This document shows, in pieces, positions 5,364-58,303 of a DNA stretch of 64,000 bases. The translations under genes were made by a program, and so were the position numbers. Positions within the stretch are counted from its first letter, which is position 1. Each line of letters starts with the position of its first letter. The stretch lies in the NCBI GenBank assembly GCA_944372365.1, contig CALVYP010000004.1, positions 1 to 64,000 of the forward strand, in the 5' to 3' direction. Origin of the DNA: an uncultured Clostridia bacterium (lineage in GTDB: Bacteria; Bacillota; Clostridia; Christensenellales; UBA1242). A model generated the notes under the pieces. It was not told the DNA's origin and did no database searches. It saw nothing but the letters and a program-made list of their open reading frames with translations.

Positions 5364-6053
5364 TTATGCGTTTGAAACCAAGCATTTTTGTTTTTTTGAA
5401 GCAAGAGCGTAACTTTGGTCAATCAAATCAAAAATTTGGTGCATGTTTTCACATTTTTCAAGCAAGATGGAAACCCAATATTTTTTGTTCATGTGATACC
5501 CAGGCAAAATGCATTTAAAATCCACAACTTTTTCAGGGTCAAGCGGTTTTAAATTTAAAATTTCAACTTTTTCATCGCCTTGCAGCCCCAACTTGCTTGC
5601 ACGGGCCAGCATAAACACGACATACCATTTTCTGTTGTCTTTTCTGCGACATATTGCGCCATCTTCAAACTTTTCCCACAAAAATTCAAGTTTGTCACCA
5701 TATTTTTGCGCAATATATTCAATCACATTCTTTGCCATGACCGACTTAAAAACGCGCTTGTAAAAGCATTTTTGTGCAATATCTTGCATGACGGCTTGAT
5801 ATTTTTCTCTAATTTCACCAACAAAACTTCCCTGCGCACCGTCAACCAAAAACAGAGTGTATGGCTCGCCCGTTTCAAGTTCAATCACTTGCGACGAAAC
5901 AGCGTCGCCTTCAATAAAAACTTTTAGTAAAAAATTATCTTTAAGCAGCGCTTGATATTGCATTACGCCAGCAGATTTTTTAAAACCATATTGCAAAAGT
6001 TTGCTTTCGTTGGCGCTTTTGTTTTTGAAGATGCTTTGAATTATTTTATTCAT
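5364..6053 (-). CDS. YjbR/MmcQ-family protein with N-terminal extension
   Basis: 229 residues, about twice the size of a stand-alone YjbR/MmcQ domain. Residues ~100-215 carry the family pattern: VIEYIAQKYGDKLEFLWEKF, then KWYVVFML, LKPLDPEKVVDFK and MNKKYWVSILLE. The first ~95 residues form a separate domain with no family recognised. YjbR proteins have a CyaY-like fold and are called DNA-binding, but their role is unclear. No ribosome binding site precedes the ATG; a TATAAT hexamer ends 6 nt upstream, so the mRNA is probably leaderless. It leads the operon with flavodoxin and the HD protein. Confidence 0.78.
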   Translation of the reverse strand: MNKIIQSIFKNKSANESKLLQYGFKKSAGVMQYQALLKDNFLLKVFIEGDAVSSQVIELETGEPYTLFLVDGAQGSFVGEIREKYQAVMQDIAQKCFYKRVFKSVMAKNVIEYIAQKYGDKLEFLWEKFEDGAICRRKDNRKWYVVFMLARASKLGLQGDEKVEILNLKPLDPEKVVDFKCILPGYHMNKKYWVSILLEKCENMHQIFDLIDQSYALASKKQKCLVSNA

Positions 6054-6059
6054 GCTTAA

Positions 6060-6065
6060 ATTATA
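6060..6065 (-). promoter_or_regulatory. -10 element of leaderless YjbR gene
   Basis: TATAAT on the minus strand ends 6 nt before the ATG at 6053, which places the transcription start at or next to the start codon. The -35 region is weak (TTTAAA at 17 nt). Confidence 0.6.
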
Positions 6066-6110
6066 TCACAAAAATTTATCTTTTTAAATTAAAAAATCTT
6101 CACCAAATGA

Positions 6111-6139
6111 TTGACAACCTTGTTTTACATGAGTATAAT
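6111..6139 (+). promoter_or_regulatory. Consensus promoter of tRNA-Leu
   Basis: TTGACA (6111-6116), a 17-nt spacer and TATAAT (6134-6139), a perfect housekeeping sigma promoter ending 22 nt before the tRNA 5' end. Confidence 0.85.
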
Positions 6140-6161
6140 AAAAAAGTGCAAATTAAAGTAT

Positions 6162-6243
6162 GCGAGTGTGGCGGAATGGCAGACGCGCACGTTTAAGGGG
6201 CGTGTTCGAAAGAGTGTGGGTTCAAGTCCCACCACTCGCACCA
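6162..6243 (+). tRNA. tRNA-Leu (AAG), CCA encoded
   Basis: Acceptor GCGAGTG pairs with CACTCGC, followed by A and an encoded CCA. The anticodon stem CACGT/GCGTG closes the loop TTAAGGG with anticodon AAG (codon CUU). The variable arm is 11 nt and the T arm is GTGGG-TTCAAGT-CCCAC. A43-type choices are ambiguous, but reading the anticodon as TAA would break the stem. A hairpin terminator follows at 6246. Confidence 0.88.
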
Positions 6244-6245
6244 GA

Positions 6246-6272
6246 ATAACAAGCCGATAGGCTTGTTTTTTT
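6246..6272 (+). terminator. Terminator of tRNA-Leu
   Basis: Stem AACAAGCC/GGCTTGTT with loop GATA, then seven T. A near-copy follows the defective tRNA copy at 6407-6433. Confidence 0.85.
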
Positions 6273-6288
6273 ATGCCATTCCGCCACG

Positions 6289-6403
6289 GTGGCGGTTGGG
6301 TTCCCCTGAAAATGCTTGCATTTTTAGGGTTTCAATGGCAGACGCGCATGTTTAAAGGGGTGCGAGAGAAAGAGTGTGGGTTCAAGTCCCACCACTCGCA
6401 CCA
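6289..6403 (+). pseudogene. Defective tRNA-Leu copy with 39-nt D-arm insertion
   Basis: The 3' two thirds (GGCAGACGC through the T arm, CACTCGC and CCA) copy the tRNA-Leu at 6162-6243. The 5' acceptor strand is missing, so the acceptor stem cannot form. Between GTGGCGG (6289-6295) and TGGCAGACGC (6336 onward) lies a 39-nt insertion (6296-6334) that folds as a hairpin around GAAAATGCTTGCATTTTT. The anticodon stem is also damaged. The same kind of insertion occurs in another tRNA-Leu copy at 12083-12121. Confidence 0.8.
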
Positions 6404-6406
6404 GTA

Positions 6407-6433
6407 TAGCAAGCCGATCAGGCTTGTTTTTTT
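6407..6433 (+). terminator. Duplicate terminator behind the defective tRNA copy
   Basis: Stem CAAGCC/GGCTTG followed by T7, a copy of the hairpin at 6246-6272. The duplicated unit also includes the GC-rich palindrome GCCATTCCGCCACGGTGGCGG (6275-6295 and 6436-6456), whose left half is the reverse complement of the tRNA D-stem region. Confidence 0.8.
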
Positions 6434-6501
6434 CTGCCATTCCGCCACGGTGGCGGTTGGGTTTGAGAGTGTTGAAAGTTGTGCGTGAGGCTAACGGGTA
6501 A

Positions 6502-6598
6502 GGCGGCATTTGTGCGCGCGGCAGCGCGCATTTTTGCGCCCCGCGCCGCGGGCGCAAAAAAAGCCTGCGCCAACAGGCGCAGGCTTGCAAATGCCGCC
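6502..6598. repeat. GC-rich cloverleaf element A
   Basis: Perfect 11-bp closing stem GGCGGCATTTG (6502-6512) / CAAATGCCGCC (6588-6598) around three consecutive perfect hairpins: TGCGCGC-GGCA-GCGCGCA (6513-6530), TTTTTGCGCCC with an 8-nt loop (6531-6560) and AAGCCTGCGCC-AACA (6561-6586). Only base 6587 at the junction is unpaired. It is far more GC-rich than the neighbourhood. A second element of the same design lies at 58176-58270. It is not coding. Whether it acts as DNA or RNA is unknown. Confidence 0.85.
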
Positions 6599-6637
6599 GT
6601 CGTCATATTATAAAACAATGCCGTATATTATAAAAAA

Positions 6638-7183
6638 TTATAATGACATGGCAAACTTACCTTCTCTTGCATCCACCCATGCAGAATATTCAACACCAAC
6701 ACTTAAACAGCCAACCTTGCTTTTTAAATATGTTTGTCTTGCATCTTCAAACTTTTTTTGCAAAGCTTGTTTAACTGCTGCTTTGTTTGAAACGTTCACC
6801 TTTTCACAAAAAGCATCAAAACTTTGAGAGTTGCTTAAAAGCTCCCCCATCGCTTGATATTGAGCTTGCTTTTCTTCAAAAGCCGCTTTAAGCCCATCAA
6901 CTCTTTCTTCAAGTTTTTCAAAAGCCCTTGCCGAGCCCAATTTTTGAACATCGACATTTTTAAAAAGCTTGTGAGCCAGCGTTTTGTGAGCGCTGCTTAC
7001 CTGCGCTAAAAACTCTTGATAACTGATGTTTTCACCATCCAGAGCATCTATGATTTGCTGCGAGTCAATTTTTTCGCCGTTTAATTTTGATTTATAAATA
7101 TGTAATAAAATTTGTTTGTCTTCGGCAGCGATCTCTCCGTTTTCAGTTGATAAAAAACCCAGTTCTTCAAGTGTTTTAAGCAT
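6638..7183 (-). CDS. Hypothetical helical protein
   Basis: 181 residues from MLKTLEELGF; this ATG has GGAGG 5-6 nt upstream, while the in-frame ATG at 7195 lies before that site. The sequence is almost wholly helical, with Glu/Lys/Gln-rich stretches (about residues 80-150) able to form a coiled coil. There is no signal peptide or membrane segment and no family is recognised. It is a monocistronic cytosolic protein next to cloverleaf element A; its stop codon is about 40 nt from the element. Confidence 0.65.
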   Translation of the reverse strand: MLKTLEELGFLSTENGEIAAEDKQILLHIYKSKLNGEKIDSQQIIDALDGENISYQEFLAQVSSAHKTLAHKLFKNVDVQKLGSARAFEKLEERVDGLKAAFEEKQAQYQAMGELLSNSQSFDAFCEKVNVSNKAAVKQALQKKFEDARQTYLKSKVGCLSVGVEYSAWVDAREGKFAMSL

Positions 7184-7263
7184 AATTTCCTCCAATGTGA
7201 TAAACCCATTATATCACACGGAATTGAATAATGCAAACATTTTTATGCATATTTATACAAAAA

Positions 7264-11922: not shown

Positions 11923-12008
11923 TGGTGCTGGTGGTGGGACTTGAACCCACACGAAGTTGCCCTCTCAGGATTTTAAGTCCTGTGCGTCTGCCATTCCGCC
12001 ACACCAGC
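11923..12008 (-). tRNA. tRNA-Leu (TAA), CCA encoded
   Basis: Acceptor GCTGGTG/CACCAGC, discriminator A, encoded CCA. Anticodon stem CAGGA/TCCTG closes loop CTTAAAA, anticodon TAA (codon UUA). The long class II variable arm GAGAGGGCAACTTC and an intact T arm are present. Confidence 0.93.
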
Positions 12009-12050
12009 ATGTGTTTGCTTTTGCTTTTCATAATATTAAATTGTTTTGTT

Positions 12051-12134
12051 GCACAGGACTTTTAAGCCCTGCGCGTCTGCCACTGACACCCTTAAAATAC
12101 AAGCATTTTAAGGGAACCCGACCGCCACACCAGC
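12051..12134 (-). pseudogene. Defective 5' half-copy of tRNA-Leu (TAA) with 39-nt D-arm insertion
   Basis: Copies the 5' acceptor strand, D arm and anticodon arm of the tRNA at 11923-12008, including about 11 bp of 5' flank, then stops before the variable arm. Between GTGGCGG and TGGCAGACGC lies a 39-nt insertion (12083-12121) with the perfect stem CCCTTAAAAT/ATTTTAAGGG. The insertion is a close relative of the one at 6296-6334. Without a 3' half this cannot make a tRNA. Confidence 0.82.
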
Positions 12135-57555: not shown

Positions 57556-57614
57556 GATAATTTCTCCTAATAAGTGATACTTGAAAATTCTATCACTAAA
57601 TATTAAAAAAGTCA

Positions 57615-57644
57615 AATAAAAAAGCAACCCAAAAAGGTTGCTTA
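57615..57644 (-). terminator. Terminator overlapping the stop of a small gene
   Basis: Minus-strand stem AAGCAACC/GGTTGCTT, T run after it. The TAA of the gene at 57642 is in the first arm. Confidence 0.8.
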
Positions 57645-57929
57645 CATTGCATTATAGCCGATGCCATTCAAATAACTTTCAACATCAATAGTCTCTGCGA
57701 AATCGCTTACTAAAAGATATTGTTTTAATCTTGGCCTTTTGTCGAAAGCGTTGTAGCCTCCGTCCATACCCATCCAAAGGTTATCATGAAATCCAGGATA
57801 ATAAGCGGTTACAATAATATAATTGTCGCCCTCTGTTTGAGCAGCATAAACCACGCCTTGCGCATTGAGGTTTGCGGTTAGCTCACCATTTACATCAGCC
57901 GCTAGTATATAATCTCCACCTTGTGGCAT
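57642..57929 (-). CDS. Small hypothetical protein
   Basis: 95 residues, no family recognised. It has no signal peptide; a GGDYILAADVNGEL start and YYPGFHDNLWMGMDGGY suggest a compact beta-rich fold. No clear ribosome binding site is present, and no -10 lies at the 6-nt distance seen for other genes here, so the start is open. A good terminator at its stop supports it as a gene. Confidence 0.55.
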   Translation of the reverse strand: MPQGGDYILAADVNGELTANLNAQGVVYAAQTEGDNYIIVTAYYPGFHDNLWMGMDGGYNAFDKRPRLKQYLLVSDFAETIDVESYLNGIGYNAM

Positions 57930-57970
57930 AATATATCAAATTTAATTTTACAAAAATTTTTTTTCATAAT

Positions 57971-58097
57971 TGTGGATAATTTTTGCTCCTTTTTCAATAA
58001 AAGTAGTATATCTCGCTCGCTCGCTCGCTCTTAGTCAAGCAATTTTGACACGATTTGGCACTTTTTTAAAATTTTTATTTTAAAAAAATGTGGATAA
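57971..58097 (-). promoter_or_regulatory. Two perfect DnaA boxes
   Basis: TTATCCACA occurs on the minus strand at 57979-57971 and 58097-58089, same orientation, 118 bp apart, in the AT-rich stretch between a small gene and rplJ. A CTCG microsatellite (58012-58030, almost five units) lies between them. The rest of 57930-58300 holds cloverleaf element B and the rplJ promoter. Confidence 0.55.
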
Positions 58098-58175
58098 CTA
58101 ATCTTTATTTTGCCACTTTCATCAGTTTTTGAACAAATCTTTGGCAAAATTTTTTGTGACATTTTATTGCATTTA

Positions 58176-58270
58176 CGGGCGACATTTGCTCGCGTTTGCG
58201 AGCGTTTTGCCGCACCGCGGTGCGGCGGAAAACCGCGCGCAGGTCTCTGCGCGCGGTTAAATGTCGCCCG
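58176..58270. repeat. GC-rich cloverleaf element B
   Basis: Perfect 12-bp closing stem CGGGCGACATTT (58176-58187) / AAATGTCGCCCG (58259-58270) around three hairpins: GCTCGC-GTTT-GCGAGC (58188-58203), a TTTTG-CCGCACC.GGTGCGG-C stem with a small bulge (58205-58232) and AACCGCGCGCAG-GTCT-CTGCGCGCGGTT (58231-58258). Closing stem and layout match element A at 6502-6598 (shared GGCGRCATTT core). It ends 33 nt before the -35 box of the rplJ promoter. Confidence 0.83.
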
Positions 58271-58303
58271 CCCTATTTTTTTTGAAAAAACTTTGCAAAA
58301 TAA

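Follow-up and report, generated by a model that had tools for sequence, protein, structure and literature searches.

Sequence, or the presence of a single hairpin, is the usual means of recognising terminators and extragenic palindromes. The attC site of integrons is a two-site, folded recombination site that belongs to a cassette array with the IntI integrase. A class of elements united by a fixed branched shape alone would escape annotation. In REP elements, one end of a single 20-40 bp palindrome is tagged with GTAG or CGTC (PMC3733652). Here we describe cloverleaf elements in the DNA of a gut bacterium and several relatives that are real and structurally exact, starting from one locus at which three hairpins are enclosed by a common closing stem.

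Element A and its relatives in the genome

The window, by which we mean the whole stretch of 64,000 nucleotides that was analysed, carries at 6502-6598 an element (element A) in which an 11-bp closing stem encloses hairpins of 7, 11 and 11 bp with a single free junction base. This layout had been claimed in an earlier note on the same DNA and was confirmed by folding and shuffling, with an RNA minimum free energy (MFE) of -74.5 kcal/mol (z = -7.2) and a fold that 0 of 200 shuffles matched. The element reached a score of 41 (k=3) in our structural scan, and the high GC content ascribed to it in otherwise AT-rich DNA was borne out by a value of 0.68 across 6498-6602, compared to 0.39 for the whole window. 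The sister element that had been noted at 58176-58270 (element C) folds equally well (-72.1 kcal/mol, z = -9.1; scan score 40, k=3), with a closing stem of 12 bp and hairpins of 6, 11 and 12 bp. The features of both loci are listed here, with the elements and their parts given without strand.

6162-6243, + strand: tRNA-Leu(aag), whose 3' half is partly repeated between the tRNA and element A
6502-6598: element A, a cloverleaf of closing stem and three hairpins (fold and structural scan)
6502-6512: 5' arm of the closing stem, GGCGGCATTTG, pairing with 6588-6598
6513-6530: hairpin 1, 7 bp with a 4-nt loop GGCA, then T5 (from the sequence)
6531-6560: hairpin 2, 11 bp with an 8-nt loop, T5-GCGCCC ... 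GGGCGC-A5 (from the sequence)
6561-6586: hairpin 3, 11 bp with a 4-nt loop and an A tract ahead (from the sequence)
6587: unpaired G at the junction of element A
6588-6598: 3' arm of the closing stem, CAAATGCCGCC, pairing with 6502-6512
6638-7195, - strand: gene with its 3' end towards element A, 39-40 nt off (gene geometry)
58176-58270: element C, the sister element, with closing stem 58176-58187/58259-58270
58188-58203, 58205-58230 and 58231-58258: the three hairpins of element C (fold)

In the flank of element A, positions 6162-6402 comprise tRNA-Leu(aag) and then a second, incomplete version of the tRNA's 3' half with its terminator (91.5% over 130 bp), and tRNA-Leu(taa) at 11923-12130 is likewise adjoined by a similar partial copy.

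A DNA search of the same genome returned a full copy, element B, at C1:91256-91349, which is 87% identical to A, and a truncated copy, element T, at C6:6086-6146; searching with the closing-stem pattern gave three full copies altogether. The GGCGRCATTT closing stem, proposed earlier as the mark of the family, is confined to a subfamily comprising A, B, C, the truncated T and copies in the sister species; it stands as the mark of that subfamily and not of the class as a whole. Overall, 14 elements in addition to the truncated T were present in the ~640 kb examined of the 862-kb genome. The flanks of A (5364-7195) and of T (C6 ~6 kb) are rearranged in the sister species G005 (C12, C17), so that these two related copies both lie near a rearrangement.

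At the locus of element C, a block of ~650 bp (window 57600-58280) holding a 95-aa ORF, a promoter repeat and the element itself is absent between leuS and rplJ in G005 (L060). The promoter-like repeat, TTGACT-(CGAG)n-TATACT, occurs in three copies, at 58005-58038 (- strand), L025:11886-11919 (C1 ~91.1 kb) and L035:13795-13824 (C1 291 kb), with 4, 4 and 3 tetranucleotide units that result in spacers of 22, 22 and 18 bp. The copies precede the window ORF 57642-57929, a gene for a 466-aa protein and a third gene, and the repeat looks like a phase-variable promoter. A link of B and C through DnaA boxes was rejected, as their common flank is a separate repeat carrying this promoter. Element M (L046/L030, C1:192776-192864; L068 in G005) adjoins DnaA-box-like TTATCCACA motifs, and in G005 its hairpin 2 is altered on both arms and its flank looks repeated. 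In addition, TGTTTCATGTGAAACA, which differs by one base from the parS consensus, occurs three times within 155 bp at L033:2258-2412 (G000 C1 ~239.9 kb), and these copies are probable ParB/Noc-type sites.

A class defined by architecture

The elements form a real class that is defined by architecture, not by sequence. Our structural scanner ignores sequence and looks for a closing stem of at least 8 bp with an interior tiled with hairpins. Its scores left a clean gap, with three-hairpin cloverleaves at 34 or above and everything else at 21 or below. A strict scan of four species returned 19 elements, all 19 of which had three hairpins, and no element with two, four or any other number of hairpins lay above threshold in these species. 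Cloverleaves were absent from first-order Markov shuffles of the scanned stretches, from 150 kb of E. coli K-12 and from 576 kb of viral contigs. When the 47 elements that we collected were folded, exactly three branches were obtained in 47 of 47 MFE structures; the elements are 79-109 bp long, with closing stems of 8-15 bp. In addition, a covariance model built from the own-genome copies of the GGCGRCATTT subfamily returned matches with the same structure and unrelated sequence.

Elements were also found in the congeneric species G005, G026, G028, G113, G103 and G094, and several are carried by G261, which belongs to another family and has 62% GC. None were seen in samples of 87-203 kb from five congeners (G072, G023, G016, G021 and G034). 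An identical cloverleaf pair lies in tandem in G261, 258 bp apart (L213:1243-1324 and 1501-1582), with more related copies. Searching 61 genomes for the closing-stem sequence GGCGNCATTT recovered this genome only, and closing-stem sequence searches outside the genus gave one true member, in G261. A sequence-only search would therefore have hidden the class, whose members were revealed only by the structural scan and by structure-weighted models. At gathering score, no Rfam 15 covariance model matched over A or C, and over the other members Rfam gave only a sub-threshold overlap with Leu_leader (E 0.64). A fixed three-hairpin shape without a fixed sequence is not described in the families or literature that we searched. 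A viral origin was also considered and rejected, since no cloverleaf was present in 66 viral contigs in which two of the closing-stem patterns occur.

Pairing was assessed in a covariance-model-based alignment of 32 rows, comprising both strands of most elements. Although this alignment was fitted to structure and so leans towards it, 94.2% of its cells pair, compared to 54.9% in shuffles and 36-53% in slid controls, which remain far below the real alignment despite that bias; 40 of 40 pairs were changed on both sides. Orthologous loci support the structure without any model. The closing stem GCAACTTGG/CCAAGTTGC of the element at dut is kept in three species, with hairpins that differ yet pair, the elements at scpB, ffh and other loci are each other's best match between species, and the orthologues at dut, scpB and ffh retain the shape with altered hairpin sequences. 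Sequence alignment of the orthologues misplaced hairpins, and the compensatory-change counts from it were left out. In a nearest-neighbour comparison, the best matches at dut, scpB, ffh, SDR and others were orthologues, and A/B/T, the G103 set and the G261 set formed within-genome subfamilies. The elements are thus both inherited vertically and spread (or homogenised) locally.

The idea of a functional or mobile repeat family built on a four-way junction, put forward in the earlier note, gains support from the further copies in the genome itself and in related species and from the covariation between stem arms, which is strong, although part of it may stem from template switching at the DNA level. 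Template switching has been proposed both to generate perfect stems and to preserve them, imitating compensatory mutation as it does so (PMC8794818). If it operates here, covariation says less about RNA function than it normally would. An orthologous series with whole-arm change and almost no G-U pairs offers a direct test of whether template switching or selection lies behind covariation.

Gene ends, transcription termination and alternative readings

Most elements with known neighbours directly follow the 3' end of one gene or more, frequently at 0-5 nt from the stop codon or abutting both stops of a converging gene pair; B and C, which lie between divergent genes, are exceptions. G005 and G026 each have an element with a closing stem that overlaps tRNA-Val(tac) at the CCA and the 3' end of its acceptor stem (L052:3679-3832, L132:3550-3703), so that the primary transcript could misfold the tRNA. 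Integration linked to tRNAs was rejected, as two elements overlap tRNA-Val and the others overlap none.

Our best reading of the elements is that of branched, composite intrinsic transcription terminators, with chances that we regard as evenly balanced. In element A, hairpin 1 and its T5 are intrinsic-terminator-like on the + strand (hairpin/U-tail score 3.69), as are hairpin 3 and its A tract on the - strand (score 4.7), and the base of hairpin 2 consists of the T tract after hairpin 1 paired with the A tract before hairpin 3. Many copies likewise carry two canonical terminators, one for the + strand made of hairpin 1 and its T tract and one for the - strand made of hairpin 3 and its A tract. 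The middle hairpin starts with T and ends with A in 21 of the 47 elements, meaning that the forward T tract of hairpin 1 pairs with the reverse A tract of hairpin 3, and in others a U run comes after the closing stem. With strands labelled as served or unserved by gene geometry, the internal score, for hairpin and U tract combined, had a median of 3.95 on served strands (n=30) and 2.52 on unserved strands (n=28; p = 0.005), and a score of at least 3 was reached by 25 of 30 and 13 of 28 strands, respectively. A separate simple terminator downstream was found for 0 of 10 cloverleaf genes, compared to 118 of 406 other genes; in this genome, the median distance from the stop codon to a simple terminator is likewise short, at 6 nt. 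The gap that holds the element at locus G is occupied in the sister species G005 by a plain bidirectional terminator hairpin, AAAAAAATGGCTAAAAGCCATTTTTTAG, and the element behind dut ends in a T run, with the next gene starting at once.

We counted the placement at gene ends, the lack of second terminators, the served-strand scores, the swap at locus G and the dut element in favour of termination. Counted against it were the outer-end U-tract score, which taken alone showed no strand difference (p = 0.51), the 13 of 28 unserved strands scoring at least 3, elements B and C, whose divergent neighbours leave no obvious client, and the G261 subfamily, which is mostly without T tracts. The constant number of three arms is not explained by anything in ordinary termination.

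If the elements act as terminators, RNA polymerase leaving the upstream gene would release at their U tracts, from either side where genes converge, and the full four-way junction would then cap the RNA 3' end. Element A would serve the - strand gene 6638-7195 and any transcript arriving from the tRNA-Leu side. Template switching during replication could copy arm onto arm, which would be part of why the arms stay perfect and would allow hairpin sequences to turn over as the shape persists. Some subfamilies, including that of A, have also spread as copies within a genome.

Alternatively, the elements could be REP/BIME- or MITE-like non-autonomous DNA, self-copying, forming single-stranded hairpins for a transposase and surviving harmlessly behind genes. 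Such an origin would fit the within-genome subfamilies (A/B/T, the G103 set and the G261 set), whose members are closer to each other than to outside copies, the two identical tandem copies in G261 and the absence of C with its neighbourhood from the orthologous place in G005; REPs are likewise extragenic and palindromic (PMC3733652). Nevertheless, we consider it unlikely, because most members are unrelated in sequence, so that one sequence-specific transposase cannot move them, and several are orthologous across species (dut, scpB and ffh). In addition, copy number is low, a common end tag is lacking, and no target-site duplication was noticed at the element-free sites of loci G and C, where divergence limits the comparison.

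Only 1.2% of the 1799 pairs in the MFE folds of the 47 elements are G-U, compared to 10-12% in the tRNAs and tmRNA of the window and 7.7-9.4% in the genome's own simple terminator-like hairpins, a difference that can be explained in part only by the scanner favouring Watson-Crick closing stems and in which pairs are not independent. The shortage also holds in elements serving one strand only. It counts against termination, since one-way termination does not need such perfect pairing, and hints that the DNA form matters or that template switching keeps the arms perfect.

Gene ends are places where supercoils build up. A four-way junction acting at the DNA level, with the duplex extruding the cloverleaf under supercoiling and either serving as the target of a structure-specific DNA-binding protein or resolvase or absorbing supercoils between transcription units, would suit this placement, the exact number of three arms, the near lack of unpaired bases at the junction, and a G-U content that, being low in one-strand elements as well, implies constraint on both strands. 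We know of no such protein here. Moreover, the terminator-like U tracts are left unexplained and template switching can keep the arms perfect without a DNA function (mechanism in PMC8794818), and we judge this possibility quite improbable. Should a protein indeed read the junction, or the junction matter for supercoiling at gene ends, the elements would represent a new kind of DNA landmark. Our tentative suggestion, which we think has a limited chance of being correct, is that of an undescribed class of elements set by DNA shape alone, in which a junction of three perfect hairpins at gene ends has whole arms replaced, by template switching or copying between elements, and would be kept by selection on its double-stranded or cruciform form.

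Finally, an mRNA 3'-end element, whose RNA junction would block 3' exonucleases or slow the ribosome at the stop with termination taking place elsewhere, agrees with the very stable fold and the position within a few nt of stop codons but is very improbable, given the clean U tracts, the lack of a downstream terminator and a low G-U content that is ill suited to an RNA-only role.

Comparison with known systems

Assignment to the REP families with GTAG or CGTC tags fails, as the elements are 79-109 bp long and have three hairpins and no constant end tag; CGTC follows A and B only, and not C, D, E, F, G, I or J. Assignment to MITEs also fails, since closing stems differ between members and constant terminal inverted repeats are therefore lacking. 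Integron attC sites belong to a cassette array, whereas the host genes of the elements are scattered housekeeping genes.

Like the REP/BIME elements of the GTAG and CGTC families (PMC3733652), the elements are short, palindromic and extragenic, lie mostly behind genes and form small within-genome subfamilies; they differ in their three hairpins, their low copy number and the unrelated sequences of most members. The stem-loop sequence families of bacterial genomes (PMC2267715) are similarly repeated intergenic sequences that fold, but those families were clustered by sequence, whereas the class described here is united by shape only. With intrinsic terminators, including bidirectional ones, the elements have in common a position flush with gene ends and a GC-rich hairpin that leads into a T tract, and they are set apart by three hairpins held within a closing stem of 8-15 bp as a four-way junction and by almost no G-U pairs.
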